From the NCBI RefSeq assembly GCF_000828085.3, contig NZ_JXCA02000023.1, positions 30,128 through 94,127 of the forward strand: a stretch of DNA of 64,000 nt. Reading direction: 5' to 3'. Within the stretch, counting starts at the first letter, position 1, and the number at the start of each line of letters is the position of its first letter. Position numbers and translations under genes: made by a program. This DNA is from Scytonema tolypothrichoides VB-61278. GTDB taxonomy: Bacteria > Cyanobacteriota > Cyanobacteriia > Cyanobacteriales > Nostocaceae. The notes beneath the pieces are model-generated. The model was given only the letters and a program-made list of their open reading frames with translations. It was not told the origin of the DNA and did not search any database. Shown here piece by piece: positions 27,211-41,195 of the stretch.

Positions 27211-29685
27211 ATGACATGGACACCTTTAAGAGAACGGATTAATCAACTGCCACTTGTTCTCGCTGGACCAATTTTACGACGCACTGAACCCAACGCTGTA
27301 ACTGTATGGGTGGCTTTGAAAGAAAGCCGTAATGTTACTCTAGAAATATTTGATACGAAGAAAAGAAGACTTTTTAGTGGTAGTCAGAAAACGATTAAAG
27401 TTGGTACTTATTTGCACATCGTTGCTGTCACAGCTAAAACTTCATCAAGTCTCTTACACGGAGAAAATTATCTTTACAATTTATATTTTGGTCATGGGGA
27501 AACGCTGAATCAGCCCGGTGTGTTAACTCCAGAAGGTTCAATTGAAAACATTATATATCCTCCATATGACTTACCAAGTTTTGCGCTTGTGCCAAGTCGT
27601 TTAAATGATGTGCGAATTATTCACGGTTCTTGTCGCAAGCCTCACGGCGAAAGTCTTGATGCGCTTGTGACAGTGGACAAAATGATTAGGGAAGCATTAG
27701 AAGTAGACTCAAAAAAACGACCACATCAACTCTTTCTCACAGGCGATCAAATTTATGTGGATGATGTGGCTGATGCTTTACTTTTCATGTTGATGGATGC
27801 TAGCCAGACGCTTTTGGGATGGACGGAAACTTTACCGGATGTCCAAAATTTGGAAGAGTTGAATCCAGGAAAGCGTAATAACTTGGCAACATATACTGCT
27901 GGTTTAACGGCAAGTTTTAGTAAACTGAACAAAATTTCTAATGTTGCCAAAAGTCATTTATTCACATTGGGTGAATTCTTAGCAATGTATTTATTTGCTT
28001 GGAGTGATGTGCTGTGGATAAAACCCGAAGACTTCCCAAGCTTTGAAGATGTTTTTCCCGATGCGCGAAACGTTCATCCTGATGTCAAAATATCTGGAGA
28101 AAATAGAACTTCATTTACAGAAGACGTTGTTTATTTAGAATATTTTCGAGCAGCTACTAAGGATATTAGGCGTGCTTTAGCAAATGTTCCTACATACATG
28201 ATCTTTGATGATCATGAAATAACTGATGACTGGTTTTTAAATATTGCGTGGTGCGATCGCACTCTCAACAAACCCCTCGGTAGGCGCATACTCCAAAATG
28301 GTTTACTCGCTTATGCTATCTGCCAAGCTTGGGGAAACACACCAGAACAGTTTGAACAAGGAAACCCAGGAGAAGCACTACTCAAAGCAACCGAAGCATG
28401 GTTAGCTTCCTTTGGCACAAACCCACAGTATGAACAAGAAATTGCCCTGCGTGTTGGTTTGCCATCCTTTGCAGATATTAAAACAAGTCAGCCAAGACGA
28501 GTCATCCATCAAGAAGGTTCTTTAAAATGGCACTATACTGTAACTACTCCAGAATATGAAGTCTTAGTTTTGGATACGCGCATGTGGCGGGAATTTCCAG
28601 GGAAGGACTTTGATTTTCCCGGACTTTTAAGCGCTGAAGGATGCGATGAACAAATCTCAAAAGTCGTTCGTCCCCAAAATACACGAGTGACTTTGGTGAT
28701 CGCGCCTAGTCCAGTTATTGGCTTACCGTTTTTAGAAACCTTACAAAAAACAGCTAAAAGTATTGCAGAAAAACTGGGTGCTGCTGCTTGGGGTTTTGAT
28801 CCAGAAGCTTGGGGTTTAGAAGAAACAGCATTTGAAAGATTGTTTGCTAGACTCGCACTACGGGCATTACCTGCAAGGCAAAGTCGTGTCATTATCTTAT
28901 CTGGGGATGTTCACTATAGTTTCACCGCGCGTCTACAATATTCGGCAATACGTCCTTTCCAAAGTTCCAAAAATGTCAAAACTGAACTTATTGTTGCCCA
29001 ATTTACGAGTAGTTCGCTTAAGAATGAAGCTAAGGGATTCGGTGGAAGTCATTCCTTGCATAAGAAAGGTTTTGTTCCTTTTGCAATTATCAAGTATCTG
29101 CCAACAGCAGAGGTTATAGGGTGGGAAAATAAAGGAGGGAAGGAACTAGAAATTGGTGGTTTTTATACTCTTGTCGATCAAACCGTTCAACATCTTCCTT
29201 GGAGAGTCAAATGTAGTCCGGCTAAAGTGGATTTAGTCCAAGAACGCGATTGGTTTAGAGTCTTACAAATCACGAAACAACCTGAATGGTGGTACCGGAT
29301 TGATTTTTTATCAGCGAAACCAGAAGAAATTAATGAACCGAGAAATTACAATTCTCAGCAATTATATTCTGTCAAAGCACCTCTACCAGGACAAGACCGT
29401 AAGCAGCCTTTGGAACAATACCTCGCAATGGCAAAAAACTCTCATGATTATATAGGTAAGAAAGGAAAAGGCAGAGAAGTTGTCGGATTAAATAATATTG
29501 GTGAAATCACTTTTGAGTTTGTTGATGGTAAGGAGATAGCTGTACAAACTCTTTGGTGGCGTTTGGAAAGTCGGGAAAAGGGCAAGCTTTTGGAACCTTT
29601 TCCGTTAACTAGATGTGAAGTGTCGCTCGCGTTTGATAATCCAAATTATCCAATGGATGAGGTGTTGAAGGAAGTGAAATGGTAA
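27211..29685 (+). CDS. PhoD-like metallophosphatase
   Basis: An 824-aa enzyme of the PhoD-like alkaline phosphatase family. The N-terminal beta domain (LAGPILRRTEPNAVTVWVAL) precedes a calcineurin-like catalytic domain with RIIHGSCRKPHGE near residue 135, LTGDQIYVDDVADAL near 177, the metal-binding MIFDDHEITDDWFLN near 332, and ILSGDVHYSFTARL near 568. The C-terminal 230 residues are less conserved. No signal peptide or Tat motif is visible, unlike secreted PhoD, so a cytoplasmic location is possible. Family members hydrolyse phosphate mono- or diesters with metal cofactors. Confidence 0.88.
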   Translation: MTWTPLRERINQLPLVLAGPILRRTEPNAVTVWVALKESRNVTLEIFDTKKRRLFSGSQKTIKVGTYLHIVAVTAKTSSSLLHGENYLYNLYFGHGETLNQPGVLTPEGSIENIIYPPYDLPSFALVPSRLNDVRIIHGSCRKPHGESLDALVTVDKMIREALEVDSKKRPHQLFLTGDQIYVDDVADALLFMLMDASQTLLGWTETLPDVQNLEELNPGKRNNLATYTAGLTASFSKLNKISNVAKSHLFTLGEFLAMYLFAWSDVLWIKPEDFPSFEDVFPDARNVHPDVKISGENRTSFTEDVVYLEYFRAATKDIRRALANVPTYMIFDDHEITDDWFLNIAWCDRTLNKPLGRRILQNGLLAYAICQAWGNTPEQFEQGNPGEALLKATEAWLASFGTNPQYEQEIALRVGLPSFADIKTSQPRRVIHQEGSLKWHYTVTTPEYEVLVLDTRMWREFPGKDFDFPGLLSAEGCDEQISKVVRPQNTRVTLVIAPSPVIGLPFLETLQKTAKSIAEKLGAAAWGFDPEAWGLEETAFERLFARLALRALPARQSRVIILSGDVHYSFTARLQYSAIRPFQSSKNVKTELIVAQFTSSSLKNEAKGFGGSHSLHKKGFVPFAIIKYLPTAEVIGWENKGGKELEIGGFYTLVDQTVQHLPWRVKCSPAKVDLVQERDWFRVLQITKQPEWWYRIDFLSAKPEEINEPRNYNSQQLYSVKAPLPGQDRKQPLEQYLAMAKNSHDYIGKKGKGREVVGLNNIGEITFEFVDGKEIAVQTLWWRLESREKGKLLEPFPLTRCEVSLAFDNPNYPMDEVLKEVKW

Positions 29686-30043: not shown

Positions 30044-30637
30044 TCATTTATTTTTTAAAAATCTCCAATACTGGTGTGCTGCTTCAGCTTCAATTTGATG
30101 ATCCACATGCCATTTCTTGATAGAGGATATATCGTAATACCCAACATTAATAGTTTCATGGGACTCTTGCAACGTTCCACCGACAACCGTGCAATAAAAC
30201 TGGAGATGGTAAGTGGTGTGGGGCTGTCCAAAATCTCCAGGCATACGATAACCAAGACGAATCAACGAACCAACTTCCACAAGTAAACCTGTTTCTTCTT
30301 GCACCTCGCGCATAATCGACTGCTGCGGCGTTTCTCGAACTTCAGCCCAACCACACGGTAAGCACCACGTACTATCATCAGTTCGCTGAACCAACAATAA
30401 CTCGCCGTGATCGTTTAAGATTGCAGCTGACACTCCTATTTTTGGCGTAATGTACCCCAGTTCTGCGCGAAATCGCTTTTCTACTTCTGAACGAGTGAGG
30501 GAAGAGAGTGCTGAATACTGTGAGGAAGCAAGAGTGAGAAGTCGTTCGTAGCGTTCGCGATCATAAATGTCTTTTGAATAGTTTAATCCAAGTTGTGCGA
30601 TCGCTCGCAGTTCTTCTAGCAATTCGATAATACTCAT
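30044..30637 (-). CDS. Nudix hydrolase
   Basis: A 197-aa protein. The Nudix box is intact: G-WAEVR-E-TPQQSIM-REVQEETGLL near residues 97-120, with the RE and EE residues that bind the metal. Residues 1-60 form the helical N-terminal extension (ELLEELRAIAQLGLNYSKDI) found in a subgroup of ADP-ribose or nucleotide-sugar pyrophosphatases. The substrate is not predictable. It lies 21 bp after the ABC ATPase gene on the same strand and is likely the last gene of that operon. Confidence 0.93.
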   Translation of the reverse strand: MSIIELLEELRAIAQLGLNYSKDIYDRERYERLLTLASSQYSALSSLTRSEVEKRFRAELGYITPKIGVSAAILNDHGELLLVQRTDDSTWCLPCGWAEVRETPQQSIMREVQEETGLLVEVGSLIRLGYRMPGDFGQPHTTYHLQFYCTVVGGTLQESHETINVGYYDISSIKKWHVDHQIEAEAAHQYWRFLKNK

Positions 30638-30658
30638 GGATAAATATTTGAAATAAAT

Positions 30659-31546
30659 TTATTGCGTTAACTCTAAATAAATATACTCTAACCGCACTGG
30701 CTGACGAGCAATCGAATCGAGAGGAATACCATCAAAGCGAGAAAGAATTTCTTTTAATTCTAGTTGTTCAGGTACCCAAAATGCCAAATCACGACCATAA
30801 CGTCGGGGTGTGAAACCGTATTCAAGTCCTCGTGCGATCGCCCCTTCCTCTTCTGAAGTCTGTACAATGACAATTTCTTGTGCTGGAATTTTTTTTCTAA
30901 GTTCAGAGAGACTTCCTTCAGCCAAAATTCGACCACTTTTTAAAATACCAATATTATCACAAAGACGTTCAGCTTCATCTAATAAATGAGTCGTCAGTAA
31001 AATCGTAATTCCTTGATTTTTCAGTTGTCGAATCAATTCCCAAATTTCGTATCGCGCTTCAATATCTAAGCCTGTCGTTGGTTCATCAAGAATAACGAGC
31101 TTTGGCTGATGTACCAATGCAACAGCAATATTTAAACGTCGTTGCATTCCTCCACTGAGAGTCTCTACCGGACTTTTTGCCCTATCTAATAGATTAACAG
31201 CCTCCAAAGTTGCTTCTACTTGTTGGCGACGAGTGTGAGAGTCTAATCCATAGATGAGAGCAAAAAAATTGAGATTTTCTTGACAAGATAGAGTTTTATA
31301 TAGTAAATTTTCTTGAGGGGCAATTCCAATTAATTTTTTGGTGTCTTCTGAAACTTGCTGATTGTATATCGTCACATACCCACTATCAGCTTTGACTAAG
31401 TTACAAATAATATTAATTGTTGTTGTTTTACCGGCTCCATTTGCACCCAGAAGACCATAAATTTCCCCATATTCAATATGTATGCTCAAATCTTGAAGAA
31501 CTTTTCTTTTTCCGTAAGCCTTATTCAGATTTTTGATTCTTAACAT
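30659..31546 (-). CDS. ABC transporter ATP-binding protein (ABC-2 type exporter)
   Basis: A 295-aa ATPase with Walker A GANGAGKTTT near residue 38, signature LSGGMQRRLN near 135, Walker B LVILDEPTTGLD near 155 and the switch histidine in LLTTHLLDEAE. The C-terminal 70 residues are the regulatory tail common in CcmA/drug-exporter ATPases. The ATG at 31546 (MLRIKNLNKAYG) is preferred over 31579. The matching permease gene lies immediately upstream, separated by 152 bp that contain a heptamer repeat. Confidence 0.93.
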   Translation of the reverse strand: MLRIKNLNKAYGKRKVLQDLSIHIEYGEIYGLLGANGAGKTTTINIICNLVKADSGYVTIYNQQVSEDTKKLIGIAPQENLLYKTLSCQENLNFFALIYGLDSHTRRQQVEATLEAVNLLDRAKSPVETLSGGMQRRLNIAVALVHQPKLVILDEPTTGLDIEARYEIWELIRQLKNQGITILLTTHLLDEAERLCDNIGILKSGRILAEGSLSELRKKIPAQEIVIVQTSEEEGAIARGLEYGFTPRRYGRDLAFWVPEQLELKEILSRFDGIPLDSIARQPVRLEYIYLELTQ

Positions 31547-31698
31547 ATTTCTGAGATTAGTATAATTGCAACTACACATAAACCACGCAGTTACTCTGTT
31601 CCCTGTTAAGAGTTCCGTGTTCCCTGTGTTTTTAAAAATTGATTTACTTATCGAGATAATTATCTGCGTCGAGAATGCAAGAAAAAACAGAAATCATT

Positions 31699-32472
31699 TC
31701 ACAGCCTTTTTTCTACCATCAACATTCGTCGATAAGATAACCATCCACCTAGAACCATGAACAGAGAAAATACCGTTAAAAATTGAAAGTGAGATGCGAT
31801 ATCAGATACTGTATTATTCTGAGCAGATACTCCCAAAAGTGCTTCATTCATATGATATATTGGATTAAAGTTGGCGATATCTAATAGTGTTTTAGGAAAC
31901 AATGAACTGGGCAAGAAGACGCCACCTAGAATTAACAAAGGAACTCCAAACGCTGCTACCAAAGCATTAACATCTTCGGTACGACGCGCTAATTGTGTAC
32001 CCAAAATAAATCCTAAGCCGACATAAGCGACTATACTCATAACAATAATAATGAGTCCTAAAAATATAGAACCTTTAAAAGTAGCACCCCAAAATCCAGC
32101 AATCGTATAAACAAGCAATGTTTGTCCAAAACCAATACAACTATGAGCCAGAAAAATTCCCAAGAAATAAGATATACCACTTAATGGGGAAATAAAAAGG
32201 CGTTTTAGAGTGTGCTGTTCTCGTTCTGCTACCACTGTTGCGACACTACCGCCCAAACAACTAAAAAACAATGCTGCACCAACTAAAGTTGAGGGTGCTG
32301 CATTCTCAAAAGCACGATCCATTGATAACTTGGCCCGTTCTGCCAAAATCATGCCGTTCAGAATTAAGACTGAGATTGGAAAAATACCCCAAAAAATCAA
32401 GCTGCGTTTCCGGCGCAATAATTCAACTAGAATCCGTTGAGTTACAGCTATTGTTTCACGCCAATACTTCAT
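31699..32472 (-). CDS. ABC-2 type permease
   Basis: A 257-aa inner-membrane protein with six predicted spans (for example SLIFWGIFPISVLILNG, STLVGAALFFSCLGG, LIIIVMSIVAYVGLGFILG and the last LTVFSLFMVLGGWLSY). The ABC-2 signature region is GVPLLILGGVFLPSSLFP, then ANFNPIYHMNEALLG. The ATG at 32472 lies one base after the stop of the Omp85 gene, so translation is coupled. It partners the ATPase gene downstream. The exported substrate is unknown. A degraded copy of its N-terminal coding region lies at 35306-35503. Confidence 0.92.
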   Translation of the reverse strand: MKYWRETIAVTQRILVELLRRKRSLIFWGIFPISVLILNGMILAERAKLSMDRAFENAAPSTLVGAALFFSCLGGSVATVVAEREQHTLKRLFISPLSGISYFLGIFLAHSCIGFGQTLLVYTIAGFWGATFKGSIFLGLIIIVMSIVAYVGLGFILGTQLARRTEDVNALVAAFGVPLLILGGVFLPSSLFPKTLLDIANFNPIYHMNEALLGVSAQNNTVSDIASHFQFLTVFSLFMVLGGWLSYRRMLMVEKRL

Positions 32473-32473
32473 A

Positions 32474-33952
32474 TCAAAACCGCTGACCAGTGGTAATTTC
32501 AAATCTTATATCTCCCTGGTCGTTAATCCCCAAGTCACCCCGAATTAGCCCAAACGGTGAGTTGACTCGCAGTCCTAACCCGTAACCAAACCCACTCCCA
32601 GATTTACCTCGCACTACACCCGGTTCCCCTAGCACCGTTTTGCCAGATCCAAAATCCGAGGCGAAGTCAGCAAAGACAACTCCTCCCACTGACTGAAGAA
32701 TCGGGAAACGATATTCCATAGAAACCAAGCCATAACTACGTCCACTGGCGACTTTACCACCTCCGTAGCCTCGTACAGAATTTAGTCCACCCAAATCAAA
32801 CGCTTCTGCTGGTGGAAACTCCCCAATATTTGTACCAGCTTGCAAATTAAAAGCCAACATTTCTGGATTTTGAGTTAAGCGACCATGACCTATCCAGGTG
32901 ACTGGCACATATAAAATATAGTTTGCCCGCAGTCGGTTGCTGGAAATCTTACCCAGTCCAATCGGAATTGCTTGTTCAGTGCTGAGGGTGAGAAGCGATC
33001 CTTGAGTTGGATTGTCACGGCGATCGCGCTGATCTTTACTCACAGCAAAGGACACCGTAACCAAATCATCTATGCCAGTACCGCTGACTGACAGAGGGCT
33101 TCCTAGTCTATCCACTCGTGCAAGATTATAATCGCGATCGCGAAGGCTAATCCTGGTGTAGTTAAGACCAAAAGCTGTATCCCAGTCATTGAAAGATTTT
33201 AAAACTGCTATAGACCCGCCAAATCGTCCTTCCCGCGCTGTGCTACCGTTAGACAGCTTGATATCATCGTTGAAGGTGCGAGATAAATCTCGCTCACGAA
33301 AAACTCTGAAGCTGTAGCCTAGGCGGTTTGGTTGTCCACGACGATAAGGACTGGTAAACTGGCTGTCAAACTGAACATCTTTACCGCTGACCTGAACGCT
33401 GGTATCTAGCTGTTCATTAAGACCATTAATATTTGCATCTTCATAACCCACTTGACCATAAAGCCCAACATCACCGTTATTACCACCGCCGAAGCTTAGA
33501 GAAGGGAAATGACGTTCCTTAATGTCGTAGATGATATTAACACCAGTATCATCTTCTTGTAGGGAAACATTGACTTTATCTAATGAATTTAATCTCCGCA
33601 GTCGTTGCAAGTCTTTTTGAAGTAAATCCTCACGGAATACTTGACCTGGCTTTAGTTTCAGATTGTCGATGATAAAATCTTTCTGAGTCCGCCCTTCAAT
33701 GGGTTGACCCTTATCATCGACAAACTTGCCTTTATTATTGATAAAACGGATCTGGATATCTTTGACAATTTTTTGGGCAATCTCACCAGTCTGGGCACTT
33801 TTGCCTCTAAGTTTTTCGAGTATTGGAGAAGTTGGCGATGGGGTTAAATTATCTGTTTGCAAGACAGTAGATTGAGAGTTTGCCAGCACTTCCTGATTTT
33901 CCTGAAACACCACCAGCCCCACAATGAAAATGACAACTATTTGAATACGCAT
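32474..33952 (-). CDS. Omp85-family outer-membrane protein (BamA/TamA-like)
   Basis: A 492-aa protein with a signal peptide (MRIQIVVIFIVGLVVF), one POTRA-like domain (KDFIIDNLKLKPGQVFREDL ... NVIYDI), and a 16-strand beta-barrel marked by the LNSVRGYGGG motif (the VRGY lid residues near residue 405) and a C-terminal F. It is shorter than BamA (one clear POTRA rather than several), fitting small TamA/FhaC-like or cyanobacterial Omp85 relatives. Its ATG overlaps the stop of the DUF2141 gene (TAATG). The operon with an ABC-2 exporter suggests export across both membranes. Confidence 0.9.
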   Translation of the reverse strand: MRIQIVVIFIVGLVVFQENQEVLANSQSTVLQTDNLTPSPTSPILEKLRGKSAQTGEIAQKIVKDIQIRFINNKGKFVDDKGQPIEGRTQKDFIIDNLKLKPGQVFREDLLQKDLQRLRRLNSLDKVNVSLQEDDTGVNIIYDIKERHFPSLSFGGGNNGDVGLYGQVGYEDANINGLNEQLDTSVQVSGKDVQFDSQFTSPYRRGQPNRLGYSFRVFRERDLSRTFNDDIKLSNGSTAREGRFGGSIAVLKSFNDWDTAFGLNYTRISLRDRDYNLARVDRLGSPLSVSGTGIDDLVTVSFAVSKDQRDRRDNPTQGSLLTLSTEQAIPIGLGKISSNRLRANYILYVPVTWIGHGRLTQNPEMLAFNLQAGTNIGEFPPAEAFDLGGLNSVRGYGGGKVASGRSYGLVSMEYRFPILQSVGGVVFADFASDFGSGKTVLGEPGVVRGKSGSGFGYGLGLRVNSPFGLIRGDLGINDQGDIRFEITTGQRF

Positions 33953-34416
33953 TAGCCTAAAAAGTTCAGCAATTGAATTTGAATGTTGGTCTGTGGACCG
34001 GCAACTAGAACCGCACAATCCCCAAATTTGGGCGGACCTGTGAGAATTTTGGGGTTTTGAGAAAAGCCAAACTGTTCAGTGGGGATACCCAATAGATTGC
34101 GATTGAGGATGCCGTCGTTGTTGGCATCATGATAGGCGGCGATCGCATAATTTCCTGATTTTAAGTTTTCAAATTTAACTGTCAGCGGAGCGTTTTCTAG
34201 TTTGACGCAACGGGCAGCCACCGCGCGATCGCTACTGCTAGGAAATCCTCGCCCACCAGAAAACACGCTCAGACAAACTTGCCCACGCTGGTTTTTCAAG
34301 CCGTTAATGGTGATGGTGAGACTACTGTTAGACAGTGCAAAAGCACCGGGTGAAGCTGTCAAGTTTATGACAGCGCTTATAAGTAAAAAGCTCCCTAAAG
34401 AACGTTGCATCGTCAT
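33952..34416 (-). CDS. DUF2141 secreted protein
   Basis: A 154-aa exported protein: signal LGSFLLISAVINLTASPGAFA, then a DUF2141 beta-sandwich with ITINGLKNQRGQVCLSVFSG, AIAAYHDANNDGILNRNLLG and PTEQFGFSQNPK. The function of DUF2141 is unknown; the DANNDG loop resembles a calcium-binding turn. A GGAG ribosome-binding site precedes the start. Its ATG overlaps the stop of a 43-codon frame upstream (ATGA), and its stop overlaps the Omp85 start, so all three are likely translated from one mRNA. Confidence 0.88.
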   Translation of the reverse strand: MTMQRSLGSFLLISAVINLTASPGAFALSNSSLTITINGLKNQRGQVCLSVFSGGRGFPSSSDRAVAARCVKLENAPLTVKFENLKSGNYAIAAYHDANNDGILNRNLLGIPTEQFGFSQNPKILTGPPKFGDCAVLVAGPQTNIQIQLLNFLG

Positions 34417-34544
34417 TGACTCCTATGTAAAACACTATTGATTTGATTGCAATACGGTGACATTTGTTGCTCAAAACGTGCTTGCATCTTGCGATATTCA
34501 ATGATGGGGCGATCGCCTTTGCGTTGGCGGGCACGGAGTGCCAT
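34413..34544 (-). CDS. Small ORF (43 aa) coupled to the DUF2141 gene
   Basis: A basic peptide starting MALRARQRKGDRPIIEYRKM and ending VLHRSQ. The stop codon overlaps the DUF2141 start as ATGA, and a GAGAG motif precedes its ATG at 34544. The overlap suggests a real coupled ORF or leader peptide, but the short length and the HIP1 octamer inside it leave doubt. I do not recognise it. Confidence 0.4.
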   Translation of the reverse strand: MALRARQRKGDRPIIEYRKMQARFEQQMSPYCNQINSVLHRSQ

Positions 34545-34564
34545 CGATCGCTCTCAATCAACCA

Positions 34565-35260
34565 CTAGTCCCTTTCTACTTGAGGTTTTATTCCATCCAG
34601 CAAAACGGAAATTATTTCATTCACTATCACTTCACTCTTAGCAGCATCTGGAAGTTTGGTGACGTAGGGAATGCTTTCAATACATGACAAAAAGAATCCA
34701 GTTAGTAGTTTCGGACGAGTGTCGTCTCGGATTTCCCCTCGTTCTTGCGCCTCGGTAAAGATTTGTCGAATTGGTTCAAAGATAGATTGTTCAGCACAAG
34801 CTGATAGCCGTTTGATATTTTCTTCCCCTAATAACGGCATATCTGTGTGGAACATACTCAAGAAATGGATGGGAGGTTGAGAGAGAAACCACGTAGAAGC
34901 TGCATGAAGTTGCGATCGCACAAGCTTAACCGAACCTTCACCTCCAGATTGCAATCTTTGAGACTGCAAGGAAACGTCGTGCGCCCTATGGGTTCGCACC
35001 TCGCCTCCTGCATCCTGAATAGCCTGCTGTAAACCTGTTCGGTGGCGTTCAAACATTCGCTCAGTGACTCCCACAAAAAGTTGCTCCTTACTGGGAAAAT
35101 GATAGTACAACGATGCTTGACGAATTCCCACCTCACGAGCAATATCCCGCATGGTTACTGTATTGTAACCTTGTGTGCGAAATAACCGTTCTGCCTGCTC
35201 AAGGATACGCGAGCGTCCACTACAGGAGACTTCTTTTGGAGAGAGAGAGTCGTCTGGCAA
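34565..35260 (-). CDS. TetR/AcrR-family transcriptional regulator
   Basis: A 231-aa repressor-type protein. The N-terminal helix-turn-helix is RILEQAERLFRTQGYNTVTM then MRDIAREVGIRQASLYYHFP. The C-terminal ligand-binding helices include FLSQPPIHFLSMFHTDM and LTGFFLSCIESIPYV. The start is a TTG at 35260 behind an AGGTAGG motif. Residues about 78-106 (DAGGEVRTHRAHDVSLQSQ ...) are rich in R, Q and G and correspond to interspersed-repeat-like DNA (34940-35025), an in-frame insertion between helices. It lies directly upstream of the DUF2141-Omp85-ABC operon and is the likely regulator of it. Confidence 0.9.
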   Translation of the reverse strand: MPDDSLSPKEVSCSGRSRILEQAERLFRTQGYNTVTMRDIAREVGIRQASLYYHFPSKEQLFVGVTERMFERHRTGLQQAIQDAGGEVRTHRAHDVSLQSQRLQSGGEGSVKLVRSQLHAASTWFLSQPPIHFLSMFHTDMPLLGEENIKRLSACAEQSIFEPIRQIFTEAQERGEIRDDTRPKLLTGFFLSCIESIPYVTKLPDAAKSEVIVNEIISVLLDGIKPQVERD

Positions 35261-35305
35261 TCTGGAACCTACCTAACGTTTAGTAGTCAACTATTAAAGA
35301 TTATA

Positions 35306-35503
35306 TTACACTGGCAAATAATGTTCTCTTTTTTTACCTAAATCTTCCAATTTTCTTGTTCCATCAGCTAGACACTCGTCAGCGACTAAAGTTGAGGATG
35401 CAGCATTCTCAAGGGGATATGCTTTTGAGAATTTTGCCGATTGCTCAAAATCAATTCGTTGAGAAAAACTCCAAAATATGAGGCTGTGTCTATGTTCCAA
35501 CAA
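35306..35503 (-). pseudogene. Degraded copy of the ABC-2 permease N-terminal region
   Basis: The frame reads HSLIFWSFSQRI ... FEQSAKF ... ENAASSTLVADE. It aligns with RSLIFWGIFPIS ... RAKLSMDRAFENAAPSTLVGA of the permease at 31699-32472. The DNA (GTTGAGGATGCAGCATTCTC) also aligns with the permease gene. It is a fragment without start or catalytic context, located just upstream of the TetR gene. Confidence 0.75.
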
Positions 35504-35709
35504 TTCTATTAAAATGCCCTGTTGTGATGGCTATTGTGTCACATCAGAAGAATCCAGAATACAGGAGTCAGGGATCAAAATAATCCTATAGATTCATCTA
35601 GGAACTTGTAACCCCAACTCAACCCCTAGAATTCAAATTCTTTTTGAATTATGACTTCTGAATTCTTCTTCGGTTAGTACTTCATGGTGAGGAGTTAATT
35701 GAGTAACGC

Positions 35710-37668
35710 ATGAGTCAAGTATTCAATTCCCCAGAATTATCTACTATTTCCCGTCGCACATTACTAAAATTATTTAGTGTCGGTGCTGCTACAGGAGTTT
35801 TGGGATACTCTCGTTTGACTAAACCAAAACCAACAGTTTTTCGACAAGATACCCTAAGTTTGCCACTGTTATTAAATCAACCAAAAAGTGTTGTCGTCGT
35901 TGGAGGTGGGTTAGCTGGTTTAGCTTGTGCTTATGAACTGAGTCAGAGAGGATTTGCAGTCACATTATTGGAAAAATCTCCCCAACTTGGGGGCAAAATT
36001 GCCAGCTGGCAAATTGAAGTTCTGGGTGACACCTTCAAAATGGAGCATGGCTTTCATGGCTTTTTTCCTCAGTATTATAATCTGAATAATTTAGCTTATG
36101 AACTAGGAATTTCGGAAAATTTCAAGTCATTAAATTCTTACTCTGTTGTTTATCGTGACACTAAGTATCAACCAGAGGTCTTTCGTCCCAGTCGTTCAGC
36201 TTTTCCTTGGAACATTGTGGATTTAGCCATAGCATCTCCCAATCGCTTTCAATGGGGTATAAATCTCACAAAATTGAAACATTTACAAGTTTTCCAAGCA
36301 ATTGGTGGTTTTGAGAGAGAAAAGAATTATCGGCGTTTTGATAATATTTCAGTTGCTGATTGGGTAGAGAAAGAATTTCCCAGAGGTTTATACGACTTGT
36401 ATTTTCTGCCTTTTGCTAAATCTAGTTTGAATGCACCAGACGTGATGAGTGTTGCTGAACTTTTACAGTTCTTCCACTTTTATTTTTTTGGTAACCCAGA
36501 AGGACTTGCTTTTAATGGTACCAAAGATGATATGGGAACAAGTTTGGTGCAACCCATAGCTGAAGCGATTCAAAGTAAGGGTGGCAAAATAATTACAGAA
36601 GCAATGGTGAGTGAAATTCAATTTTTAAAAACTAAAATAGACTCACTTAGCTATCAGATTGGTAATAATACAAACAATGTTCCTTTTGGGGTTAAGCGTA
36701 ATCATACTATAGAGACGCGCCAAGGAACATCTCTACAATATTTTGGTGCGGCTGATGAAGTCTTTGCTTTATCAGATAATAGTCAAGAAGCAATTTCTCT
36801 TACCTGCACTCACCAAGGTTGTACCGTGAAAATGGCGGAAGATGGTAAGTTTCATTGCCCTTGTCATGGAGCTGTGTTTGCGGCTGATGGTAAAGTATTG
36901 AAAGGTCCAGCCCAACGTGATTTATCTAAATTTAAAGTTGTCCAACGTCAGGATGATGGTTTGCAGTTGGTAGCAGCAAATCTCGATTCACCATCATCAC
37001 AGACAATTCAAGCAGATTATTATGTCTTTGCTACTGATGTACCAGGTGTACAGCAGTTGTTTCGGCAAATAAATGGTAATGTTGATGGAGTTGTGGGTAC
37101 TACGCGATCGCAAATCAAAAAACTAAACGTCGCCGATCCATTCGCTGTCTGTCGTTTCTGGTTTGATCGTGATTTTGAGTGGAACCACAGTCATTTTACC
37201 TCTTTGTCAGGCTATCAACTCACAGACAGCATCACTCTCTATCACCGCATTCAAGAACAATTCATTGAGTGGACAAAACGCACTGGCGGTAGTGTGGTGG
37301 AATTACACGCTTACTGTTACAAAGAAAAACAATTCCCCACCCAAGAAGCATTGTTAACAACTTTTGAGCAAGAACTCTACGAAATTGTCCCTGAGTTGAA
37401 GCAAGCAAAGATGTTGCACAGAGAATTGGTGAATCAAAAGAACTTTTCTGGATATCCGCCAAATAGTTACGCCGAACGCCCAGAAACAAGCACCAATATT
37501 CCTAACTTAGTGTTTGCAGGCGACTGGGTAAAAATGCCATTTCCTTCCGGCTTGATGGAACGCGCGGTGAGTAGTGGCTTACTTGCAGCCAATGAAATTT
37601 TACATCGGGAGGGTTTGCAGAGGCGAACACTTTTGTCAGTTAATCCAGAGGGGTTATTGCAGATTTAA
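35710..37668 (+). CDS. FAD-dependent amine-oxidase-fold enzyme with inserted Rieske domain
   Basis: A 652-aa protein. The N-terminus has a Tat-like signal (SRRTLLKLFSVGAATG). FAD-binding begins at VVVVGGGLAGLACAYELSQR near residue 62, and FAGDWVKMPFPSGLMERAV at the end closes the flavin site; this fold is shared with carotenoid desaturases and isomerases. A Rieske [2Fe-2S] domain is inserted near residues 345-415, with CTHQGC and CPCHG supplying two Cys and two His ligands. The enzyme probably passes electrons from the cluster to FAD. CrtU/CruE-type carotenoid enzymes are the nearest relatives I can suggest. The start of the insertion (36708-36740) contains repeat-like DNA. Confidence 0.85.
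   Translation: MSQVFNSPELSTISRRTLLKLFSVGAATGVLGYSRLTKPKPTVFRQDTLSLPLLLNQPKSVVVVGGGLAGLACAYELSQRGFAVTLLEKSPQLGGKIASWQIEVLGDTFKMEHGFHGFFPQYYNLNNLAYELGISENFKSLNSYSVVYRDTKYQPEVFRPSRSAFPWNIVDLAIASPNRFQWGINLTKLKHLQVFQAIGGFEREKNYRRFDNISVADWVEKEFPRGLYDLYFLPFAKSSLNAPDVMSVAELLQFFHFYFFGNPEGLAFNGTKDDMGTSLVQPIAEAIQSKGGKIITEAMVSEIQFLKTKIDSLSYQIGNNTNNVPFGVKRNHTIETRQGTSLQYFGAADEVFALSDNSQEAISLTCTHQGCTVKMAEDGKFHCPCHGAVFAADGKVLKGPAQRDLSKFKVVQRQDDGLQLVAANLDSPSSQTIQADYYVFATDVPGVQQLFRQINGNVDGVVGTTRSQIKKLNVADPFAVCRFWFDRDFEWNHSHFTSLSGYQLTDSITLYHRIQEQFIEWTKRTGGSVVELHAYCYKEKQFPTQEALLTTFEQELYEIVPELKQAKMLHRELVNQKNFSGYPPNSYAERPETSTNIPNLVFAGDWVKMPFPSGLMERAVSSGLLAANEILHREGLQRRTLLSVNPEGLLQI
36708..36740. repeat. Palindrome-like repeat inside the FAD/Rieske gene
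   Basis: The stretch begins ATAGAGACGCGCC and ends CATCTCTACAATA, the arms of the TAGAGACG ... CGTCTCTA palindrome family seen at 41701, 45858 and 57124. It is in frame, encoding TIETRQGTSLQYF just before the Rieske domain. Confidence 0.5.
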
Positions 37669-38486: not shown

Positions 38487-41195
38487 ATGGTTTCTCAGCA
38501 ACTGTCCTATGGTAACAATCCCGATGTCAAAACTATTTTAATTTTGGCAGCAAATCCAACAAGTACCTCAAGGCTACGACTGGACGAAGAGGTACGGGAA
38601 ATTGATGAAGGATTACGACGCGCTAACAAACGAGAGGAATTCAAGTTAGAGCAAAAATGGGCAGTGCGATCGCGTGACTTCTACCGAGCCATGTTAGATT
38701 TTCAGCCCCAGATTGTTCACTTCAGTGGGCATGGTGCTGGGCAAGATGGTATTGTTTTAGACGATGAGACGGGACAGCCAGGGTTAATCTCTGCAGATGC
38801 ACTGGGAAGTATGTTCAAGCTGTTTGCCACAAAAGGAGTGCAGTGTGTACTTCTCAATGCCTGCTATAGTGAGGTGCAAGCAAAAGCTATTAGCCAACAC
38901 GTCAATTATGTGATTGGCATGAACCAAGTGGTTGGGGATCAAGCAGCAATAGCATTTTCTGTCGCATTTTATGATGCTCTAGCAGCAGGACAACAGGTGG
39001 ATTTTGCTTATGAATTAGGTTGTGCAGTCTTAATTAAACATTTAGAACAGCAAACTCCAGTTCTGTTTAAAAAAGAGCAAATTAGTATCATCCCCAGCCA
39101 ACCAGAAGTAGACATTATTCCACCCAATCCCTATCAAGGATTAGCAGCATTTGGAGAAGAAGATGCAGCATTCTTTTTTGGAAGGGAAACATTTGTTAAC
39201 GGTTTGGTAGAAGCAGTTAAAAAACAGCCCTTAGTAGGAGTCATTGGTCCTTCTGGTAGTGGAAAATCTTCTATTGTGTATGCAGGGCTAATTCCCCAAC
39301 TGCGTATGACAGAAAACTGGGTGATTGAATCATTTCGTCCTGGTAATCAACCATTTTATCACCTCGCATCTGCGTTAGTTCGTCAATTAGTGCCAGGAGT
39401 TGATGAAATTCAACAATTGCGCTCAGCAGCTGGACTAGATAAAAATATACAGCAGGGTTTGGTTACTTTGGAGCAGATAACATCTCGGATTATGAAACGT
39501 AACCCTGGTAAACGTCTGCTGCTGTTTGTCGATCAATTTGAAGAACTCTACACCCTTTGTCAGAAGGAAGAACAAGAACGCTTTGCTGATTTGATGCTTC
39601 AAGCTATCCATCAGGAAAATTTAACATTGGTTTTCACTTTACGGGCTGACTTTTATGGCTTTGTCCTTGCTTATCGTCCTTTACGAGACGCATTGCAGCA
39701 GTTTACACCGCAACTGTTGAGTGCAATGAATCGAGAGGAACTACTTCGAGCAATTGAACAACCAGCCCAGAAGATAGAAGTCCAATTAGAAGCACAATTG
39801 GGGCAACGAATTTTAGATGATGTTGGCAATGAACCAGGGAATCTCCCATTGCTGGAATTTGCCCTGACTCGACTTTGGTCTTTACAGCAAAACCGCACAC
39901 TCACTCATCAAGCATACCAAGAGATAGGGGGTGTGAAAAAAGCGCTAGCTAATCATGCCGAGCAAGTTTACCAAAAATTGAGTGAAACAAAACAAAAAGC
40001 TGCACAGCGCATCTTTGTGCAATTGGTGCGCCCAGGGGAAGGAACAGAGGATACTCGTCGCATCGCCACCCGCAAAGAAGTAGGAGATGAGAATTGGGGA
40101 TTGGTGAGTGATTTAGCAGGATACACAGCCCGTTTGGTTGTCACCGGACATGATGAGAAATCTGGAGAAGATACAGTGGAAGTTGTCCATGAAGCCCTCA
40201 TCCGCGAATGGCTGACTCTGCGCGAGTGGATGAAAAAAGACCGTTTGTTTCGAGCTTGGCAAGAGCGGTTAAGGGATATTATACATCAGTGGGAAGAGAC
40301 GAAACGAGATGAAGGAATATTGTTGCGTGGTGTGCCGCTGTCAGAGGCAGAAGAAAAATTAAAGCAACGTCGCGAAGAGCTAAGTATACCAGAACAAGAT
40401 TTTATTCAACTTAGTATTGAAATGCGCGATCGCCAGCGTCGAGAAGAGAAAGCGCGTAGGCGAAGGGGAATTTTTGGCGTTTCAGGGGCAGTATTGACGA
40501 TTATGACGACATTGGGTGGGGCAGCTTGGTATCAGTCGAATCAAGCAGAAACTAGCTCTACTATAGCTGAGCACTACTCACGAGCGTTTATTCAGGCTGC
40601 AACGGGAAACAAGAAAGGCGCATTAAACTATTTTGACCAAGCGGTGAAACTAAATCCTAACTATGCTATTAACTACTTTGCCCGAGCATTTGTCCGTGAT
40701 GAGTTGGCAGACAAAAAAGGGGCATTAGAAGATTTGAACCAAGCCCTGCGCCTAGATCCTAACTATGTTGACGCCTACAACAACCGAGGGCTTGCCCGTA
40801 GTGACTTGGGAGACAAAAAAGGCGCAATAGACGATTACAACCAAGCGCTGCGCCTCAATCCTAAGTATGCTGACGCTTACTACAACCGAGGGAATGCCCG
40901 TGATGACTTGGGAGACAAAAAAGGCGCAATAGAAGATTACAACCAAGCCCTACGCCTCAATCCTAACTACGCTAACGCTTACTACAACCGAGCGCTTGTC
41001 CGTAGAGATTTGGAAAACAAAAAAGGCGCATTAGACGATTACAACCAATACGTGCGCCTTAATCCTAACGATCCTGACGCCTACAACAACCGAGGGCTTG
41101 TCCGTAGTGAGTTGGGAGACAAAAAAGGCGCAATAGACGATCGTAACCAATACGTGCGCCTAAGGGGCGAGGGCGCGAAGAACCAAAAAAATTAA
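38487..41195 (+). CDS. CHAT protease - STAND ATPase - TPR protein
   Basis: A 902-aa multidomain protein. Residues 1-195 are a CHAT protease (catalytic His in IVHFSGHG, Cys in VLLNACYS), closely related to the protein at 23093. From PNPYQGLAAFGEEDAAFFFG near residue 212 comes an nSTAND1-type ATPase with Walker A GPSGSGKSS near 255 and Walker B LLLFVDQFEELYT near 345. After an arginine-rich linker, one membrane span (VSGAVLTIMTTLGGAAWY) lies near 665-685. About six TPR units of 34 aa follow (DKKGAIDDYNQALRLNPKYA type). Such proteins resemble caspase-like immune or death effectors in which TPRs sense a target and the STAND ATPase oligomerises. No partner gene is adjacent. Confidence 0.92.
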   Translation: MVSQQLSYGNNPDVKTILILAANPTSTSRLRLDEEVREIDEGLRRANKREEFKLEQKWAVRSRDFYRAMLDFQPQIVHFSGHGAGQDGIVLDDETGQPGLISADALGSMFKLFATKGVQCVLLNACYSEVQAKAISQHVNYVIGMNQVVGDQAAIAFSVAFYDALAAGQQVDFAYELGCAVLIKHLEQQTPVLFKKEQISIIPSQPEVDIIPPNPYQGLAAFGEEDAAFFFGRETFVNGLVEAVKKQPLVGVIGPSGSGKSSIVYAGLIPQLRMTENWVIESFRPGNQPFYHLASALVRQLVPGVDEIQQLRSAAGLDKNIQQGLVTLEQITSRIMKRNPGKRLLLFVDQFEELYTLCQKEEQERFADLMLQAIHQENLTLVFTLRADFYGFVLAYRPLRDALQQFTPQLLSAMNREELLRAIEQPAQKIEVQLEAQLGQRILDDVGNEPGNLPLLEFALTRLWSLQQNRTLTHQAYQEIGGVKKALANHAEQVYQKLSETKQKAAQRIFVQLVRPGEGTEDTRRIATRKEVGDENWGLVSDLAGYTARLVVTGHDEKSGEDTVEVVHEALIREWLTLREWMKKDRLFRAWQERLRDIIHQWEETKRDEGILLRGVPLSEAEEKLKQRREELSIPEQDFIQLSIEMRDRQRREEKARRRRGIFGVSGAVLTIMTTLGGAAWYQSNQAETSSTIAEHYSRAFIQAATGNKKGALNYFDQAVKLNPNYAINYFARAFVRDELADKKGALEDLNQALRLDPNYVDAYNNRGLARSDLGDKKGAIDDYNQALRLNPKYADAYYNRGNARDDLGDKKGAIEDYNQALRLNPNYANAYYNRALVRRDLENKKGALDDYNQYVRLNPNDPDAYNNRGLVRSELGDKKGAIDDRNQYVRLRGEGAKNQKN
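40660..41165 (+). repeat. 102-bp tandem repeats encoding TPR units
   Basis: Near-identical copies of a 102-bp unit (GACAAAAAAGGCGCAATAGA ...) encode successive TPRs; they differ by few bases, which suggests recent expansion. Confidence 0.8.

Follow-up and report, generated by a model that had tools for sequence, protein, structure and literature searches.

Which neighbours does an ABC-2 exporter work with when its genes stand in a tight row of envelope genes? The question is raised by a stretch of 64,000 nucleotides of Scytonema tolypothrichoides VB-61278 (contig NZ_JXCA02000023.1, C6:30128-94127 in a genome of 7.9 Mb in 31 contigs; hereafter the window), whose minus strand encodes a DUF2141 protein, an Omp85 barrel, an ABC-2 permease, an ABC ATPase and a Nudix hydrolase. 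The initial annotation of this DNA, covering positions 30044-34544, took the outer-membrane barrel and the inner-membrane exporter to form a single export route. Here we report that the stable partner of the permease is a divergent CruE-like enzyme encoded outside that interval, which omits both this gene (35710-37668) and a TetR gene located upstream on the same strand as the row (34565-35260).

The permease and its divergent partner

The central genes of the locus, whose proteins, like the others of the locus, were scored against Pfam and NCBIfam models, are the following:

35710-37668, plus strand: cruE-like gene for an FAD amine-oxidase/desaturase that contains an inserted Rieske domain (Pfam Amino_oxidase 3.5e-39, Rieske 2.1e-11)
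31699-32472, minus strand: ABC-2 permease with a predicted type-V exporter fold (PF01061 1.2e-21, PF12698 2.4e-17)
30659-31546 (ORF 30659-31579), minus strand: ABC ATPase, DrrA/NodI-like (PF00005 3.7e-34)

The start of the ATPase gene is probably the ATG at 31546, since most tblastn matches to relatives start at residue 7-12.

Three genome samples, which share genomes with one another, were searched: an order sample (n=120) and a family sample (n=135), both with the permease, DUF2141, Omp85 and the FAD/Rieske gene, and a phylum sample (n=194) with the permease and the FAD/Rieske gene. The cut-offs for the permease were E <= 1e-20 (order), 1e-60 (family) and 1e-40 (phylum), and those for the other genes were E <= 1e-120 (FAD/Rieske gene), 1e-158 (Omp85 in the family sample) and 1e-90 (a CruH-like gene, see below). 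The permease was present in 64 genomes of the order sample, the CruE-like FAD/Rieske gene in 57/120 and both in 46 (Fisher p 8e-9); the corresponding counts were 37, 42/194 and 31 in the phylum sample (p 8e-21), and 75, 62/135 and 60 in the family sample. Shuffling within genera in the family sample reached the observed 60 co-occurrences in 0 of 20000 trials (mean 54.0), and in all seven genera of this sample that vary in the permease and in CruE, the two genes are either present together or absent together in each genome.

The two genes are also often neighbours. They lie within 6 kb of each other in 21 of the 46 order genomes that have both, in 44/60 of the family sample and in 10/31 of the phylum sample. 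Twenty of the 21 order pairs are divergent, 18 of these with 29-104 bp between the matched ends, and in a genome from another order (G307) the pair is divergent at 187 bp. When a CruH-like neighbour is counted as well, the permease lies within 6 kb of either gene in 23/46 order genomes, spanning eight families; in two genomes (G053 and G106) it is close to the cruH-like gene (~1.7 kb) and not to cruE. At a further locus (L184, G029:C1:2333000-2348000), ORFs that by eye resemble a restriction-modification system separate the permease and the cruH-like gene.

The permease and ATPase have the features of a type-V exporter, namely an ABC-2 membrane domain and a cognate ABC ATPase encoded alongside (30659-31546). 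Across 57 named loci (gene neighbourhoods), in which the ATPase was counted at >=45% identity within the DNA examined around each locus, it was found in 43. In Synechocystis, slr0251, which one passage describes as an ABC ATP-binding protein, was considered as the ATPase of this pair and set aside. A structure model of the permease (pLDDT 76, 20 sequences) gave VIA Z scores of 16.9 (ceramide exporter ABCH-9C), 16.4 (KpsM) and 15.6 (ABCA1); among the matches listed, its nearest solved structures are exporters of lipids and glycolipids, ABCA/ABCG transporters included. The modelled fold suits an amphiphilic C40 acid, and also many other lipids. The curated scores for a DrrAB drug exporter were not reached (DrrA 241.7 vs 312.45 bits, DrrB 33.2 vs 223.05 bits). 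At four loci (L128, L137, L139 and L175) the gene that follows directly downstream of the permease, ahead of the ATPase, looks like that of a membrane acyltransferase (HGSNAT_cat, PF07786, in L128, the one locus scanned with Pfam).

A proposed role in aromatic carotenoid export

The CruE architecture consists of an FAD desaturase domain with a Rieske domain. The divergent gene encodes both domains and co-occurs with a gene for a protein with a Rieske-type oxygenase domain, the CruH-like gene, which is present in the identical 57/120 order genomes, with zero exceptions. The CruH-like gene is within 6 kb of cruE in 24/57 order genomes and of the permease in 16/46, and a Rieske oxygenase of ~350 aa stands beside the FAD/Rieske gene in five named loci (L156, L161, L166, L168 and L179). 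One such protein (L161:6706-7764) matches PF00355 (1.1e-24) and falls just under the VanA_C cut-off (23.0 vs 23.5 bits), while that of L168 scores 24.8 bits for VanA_C. An FAD desaturase with a Rieske domain and a Rieske oxygenase of identical distribution are what is expected of CruE and CruH, and we infer that the divergent gene is CruE (CrtU/Sll0254 family, aromatic carotenoid synthase) and the Rieske oxygenase CruH, both acting in synechoxanthin synthesis. Passages in the literature pair A1248/crtU with the Synechocystis homologue sll0254 (PMC7880944), describe Sll0254 as a "carotenoid phi-ring synthase" (PMC7885315) and cruH as a Rieske-domain gene (PMC9769825), and assign CruE and CruH to synechoxanthin synthesis (PMC11857680, PMC9958174). 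The best NCBIfam model of the divergent enzyme, HpnE (hydroxysqualene dehydroxylase), was rejected at 157.1 bits vs a cut-off of 283.05. The CruE-like genes of two genomes (G155 and G003) have one internal stop each, and that of G118 was matched in two pieces.

We propose that the core of the locus is the permease-ATPase pair, often divergent from cruE, and that it serves the CruE/CruH pathway as a type-V ABC-2 exporter, to which TetR, Omp85 and DUF2141 would have been added later as optional parts; we give this reading about an even chance of being right. The gene content, the co-occurrence, the divergent adjacency, the co-variation and a fossil junction (see below) on which it is based are observed, and the type-V fold is modelled; the names CruE and CruH, the substrate, the direction of transport, the regulation and any role of Omp85 or DUF2141 are what we infer. 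Within the membrane, CruE and CruH would convert beta-carotene into synechoxanthin, an aromatic carotenoid with carboxy groups. The ABC-2 dimer and its ATPases would take the aromatic carotenoid from the inner-membrane bilayer and extrude or flip it to the periplasmic side, from where it could pass into the outer membrane or out of the cell. In loci that have it, TetR would tune the permease-ATPase pair, perhaps by sensing a product of the pathway, and the one-POTRA Omp85 and the DUF2141 beta-sandwich of some Nostocaceae may aid envelope assembly or hand-over without being required.

The literature consulted (titles, abstract openings and passages, with few subscription papers) names no dedicated transporter that moves synechoxanthin or other cyanobacterial carotenoids from the membranes of synthesis to the outer membrane and medium. 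Gained and lost together with the enzymes of the aromatic carotenoid, the permease is a concrete gene candidate for such movement. According to passages of one study, carotenoids occur in the medium of Synechocystis and are less abundant there in a mutant of KpsM, another ABC-2-type permease, in which Sll0254 is also reduced (PMC7885315). Aromatic carotenoids are described as one source of sedimentary biomarkers (PMC9560492), and the location of the pigment therefore bears on its shedding and preservation.

Several observations weigh against the exporter serving this pathway. The permease is found without CruE/CruH in 18/64 order genomes, and CruE/CruH without the permease in 11/57, so that neither needs the other; in the family sample, 15/75 permease genomes are without the enzyme, and the enzyme occurs without the permease in two genomes (G058 and G160). 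The Symploca locus (L179) has cruE and the cruH-like gene next to a permease fragment that matches residues 1-55 only. No ATPase at >=45% identity was found in the DNA examined at 14/57 named loci (among them L123, L130, L131, L132, L133, L136, L140, L155 and L157, some shortened by contig ends), nor one at >=50% identity in the locus DNA examined of G053, G106 and G155 (16 kb for G155); where no ATPase adjoins the permease, its gene may be elsewhere in the genome. The names CruE and CruH were given by domains, distribution and literature descriptions, and a passage on Synechocystis assigns its CruE and CruH proteins to the thylakoids, not to the plasma membrane (PMC6878006). It should also be noted that the samples overlap and that shuffling within genera controls only part of shared ancestry.

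The genomes that have the permease and not the enzymes are also in line with an exporter of the stress or drug type (DrrAB/NodIJ-like), sometimes under TetR, that exports lipids and belongs, like cruE and cruH, to a light- or oxidative-stress regulon without carrying their product. The best NCBIfam models of the ATPase are DrrA and NodI, both under their cut-offs, and in 9 of the 57 named loci a tetR gene is present, placed between cruE and the permease. However, the all-or-none co-variation with CruE in seven genera and the short divergent intergenic region shared in several families fit a pathway link better, and we regard a stress or drug exporter as rather unlikely.

Barrel, DUF2141 and the history of the locus

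The remaining features of the locus, read from the cruE side, are the following:

35385-35542, minus strand: decayed 5' fragment of a permease gene (~codons 12-65; tblastn E 2e-7)
35279-35298, no strand: imperfect palindrome of 20 bp just upstream of tetR, a possible operator
34565-35260, minus strand: TetR-family regulator with a TTG start (PF00440 2.7e-18)
34413-34544, minus strand: 43-aa ORF, unsupported as a conserved gene; overlapping probable leader DNA and the ribosome-binding site of DUF2141
33952-34416, minus strand: DUF2141 protein, likely signal peptide (by eye), predicted beta-sandwich (PF09912 2.9e-38)
32474-33952, minus strand: Omp85 barrel with a single POTRA (PF01103 3.2e-61, PF07244 5.5e-8)
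30044-30637, minus strand: Nudix hydrolase, outside the conserved unit (PF00293 2.2e-16)

The permease fragment, which is located between tetR and cruE, was detected with the permease as tblastn query against 35261-35720 (22/54 identical) and is also recognizable at the DNA level (blastn 26/28 and 56/82). Similar fragments lie 25 bp from the cruE start in three loci (L124, L131 and L141) and, weakly, in L151 (E 0.10); in L123 the fragment lies between cruE and tetR, and no fragment was reported for the other five tetR-bearing named loci (L126, L140, L144, L155 and L157). Because these decayed 5' ends remain near cruE, the permease would once have stood directly beside it, as it still does in many genomes, and the fragments would mark the ancestral cruE/permease junction. 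The genes tetR, Omp85 (in 11/57 named loci, with a remnant in L172) and DUF2141 (in 3/57, one cut by a contig end) would have been inserted between the two later. Of the 10 cruE-tetR intergenic regions scanned, only two contain the palindrome, those of the window and of Brasilonema sp. UFV-L1 (L123).

The losses are informative as well. In Brasilonema CT11 (L178) and G130 (L193) the permease breaks off at codon 53 and 43, respectively. Both retain DUF2141, Omp85 and Nudix and have no ATPase or TetR in the locus DNA examined and no CruE genome-wide at E <= 1e-120. UFV-L1 and T. campylonemoides (L124) retain the permease without this Omp85. These patterns suggest that permease and enzyme form one unit, and barrel and DUF2141 another.

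This division is at odds with the view of the initial annotation that the barrel, DUF2141 and the ABC-2 pair constitute one obligate trans-envelope export machine. Its genes, from DUF2141 to Nudix, were all confirmed on the minus strand by Pfam matches, and the overlapping or near-overlapping junctions on which it built are present in the sequence (ATGA at 34413-34416, TAATG at 33952 and TGA-t-ATG at 32474-32472). The order tetR-DUF2141-Omp85-permease is moreover not unique to this genome, as it recurs, divergent from cruE, in a genome of another genus (G155); the conserved unit, however, is another one. Junctions this tight are a local feature: the gaps between matches in G155 are ~131 and 74 nt, and those of seven other DUF2141-Omp85 pairs 143-1449 nt. 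Of the 16 family genomes with both genes, 14 have Omp85 directly upstream of the permease, within 400 nt (in G077 they are on different contigs and in G141 apart), and therefore a local functional link stays possible.

Against an obligate machine stands the fact that Omp85 and the permease occur together no more often than expected by chance: they do so in 16/135 family genomes, a number that within-genus shuffles reached in 16759 of 20000 trials. In this sample, 19/35 genomes with the Omp85 are without the permease, and 59/75 with the permease are without this Omp85. We thus rejected Omp85 as an obligate partner of the permease, their presence being statistically independent, and the claim of a single export route finds no support in gene content. 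In the order sample, the association between DUF2141 and the permease is negative (6/27, p 3e-4); CT11 and G130 keep the DUF2141-Omp85 pair beside a truncated permease; and a scan of the proteins encoded in 30044-37668 gave no domain of a periplasmic adaptor or bridge (MacAB/LptBFGC type) at E <= 0.1, although one may be encoded elsewhere. An obligate machine therefore appears improbable to us. We attach a similarly low likelihood to a narrower proposal, according to which, in those Nostocaceae where the set is complete, the ABC-2 pair would, with TetR, DUF2141 and the one-POTRA Omp85, constitute a dedicated trans-envelope route for an aromatic carotenoid acid to the outer membrane, with the Omp85 as a lipid or carotenoid port and not a protein-insertion machine.

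The assignment of the barrel to Omp85 is based on its POTRA (PF07244) and barrel (PF01103) domains, and its relatives are Toc75/BamA. It does not reach the curated score for BamA (OM_YaeT 108.4 vs 297.15 bits), and one POTRA was matched. The DUF2141 protein belongs to its family at 130.7 bits vs a gathering cut-off of 24.4 (PF09912); relatives are found in 106/135 family genomes, few of them within 3 kb of this Omp85. Its model (pLDDT 82) is a beta-sandwich with ambiguous fold matches. Against solved structures, a sequence search gave none at E <= 10 and Foldseek none at E <= 0.001; VIA gave Z 9.2 to 2yjl_A and 7.6 to 5wec_B (secretin pilotins, ExsB/AspS type), amid adhesins and other beta-sandwiches at Z 7-8.6. 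As these matches mix pilotins, adhesins and fibronectin-like folds, the fold gives no function.

The 43-aa ORF, which the initial annotation counted as the first gene of the operon, was not borne out as a conserved gene. Stops are present in frame in 7/7 relatives read on the matching strand at this place before DUF2141 (L049-L054 and L056; L048, L055 and L057 are outside this count), the ORF has zero Pfam or NCBIfam matches, and the AGGAG ribosome-binding site of DUF2141 falls within its last codons. Upstream of DUF2141 (window 34436-34545), L048-L051 have a DNA block 66-81 bp long that is 94-96% identical to the window. It carries a frameshift in L049, and in L051 a stop immediately precedes the matched peptide core; in L050 a stop lies some codons ahead of the block, and among these four loci the block is open in L048 alone, inside a longer frame. 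Its distance to DUF2141 varies, the block lying ~180-550 nt upstream in L048, L050 and L051. The region is thus probably conserved leader DNA, and a coding role is improbable; an Rfam search of 34200-35800 gave no match at E <= 1.

The Nudix gene was rejected as a member of the conserved unit, as it was found solely in Brasilonema relatives, L142 and L178 (2/57 named loci) and L193. Such local features, the Nudix gene and the tight junctions, together with the coming and going of Omp85 and DUF2141, could also be explained if the window operon had formed recently and locally from unrelated envelope genes that share no function. The cruE-permease part, however, occurs in several families and in one further order, and within genera its genes are retained or lost jointly; we consider a chance neighbourhood very unlikely. 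On either side of the locus are a large PhoD-like phosphatase gene (27211-29685), present likewise beside L124, L142, L178 and L193, and a gene for a CHAT-like protein with nSTAND1 and TPR (38487-41195), a relative of which adjoins DUF2141 in CT11.

Comparison with known systems

The exporter that we propose to serve CruE and CruH shares the permease fold with type-V ABC exporters (ABCG/ABCA/ABCH, Wzm, KpsM and TarG), with Z 13.4-16.9 over 215-248 residues among the 50 matches listed, and its ATPase, with an ABC ATPase domain, resembles those of DrrAB and NodIJ by sequence. It differs from type-V exporters in that the ATPase (for the best 25 of 194 NCBIfam models) and the permease (for all 10) score under the curated cut-offs, and in that its neighbours are carotenoid-type genes. 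The window Omp85 resembles Alr0075 of Anabaena, which passages describe as having one POTRA and a barrel (PMC12548389, PMC9705863); the likeness is one of described domain architecture, and those descriptions contain no exporter partner. In Sphingomonadales, DUF2141 is described beside crtG (PMC5989583, PMC9241875) and thus also adjoins a carotenoid-modifying gene, although the partner there is crtG and the gene here stands between tetR and Omp85. Finally, the proposed system shares with the synechoxanthin pathway of Synechococcus sp. PCC 7002 the CruE-like and CruH-like genes, of identical distribution here. That pathway is described with CruE, CruH and one unknown enzyme, in a passage that mentions no transporter (PMC11857680), and an exporter would be an addition to it.

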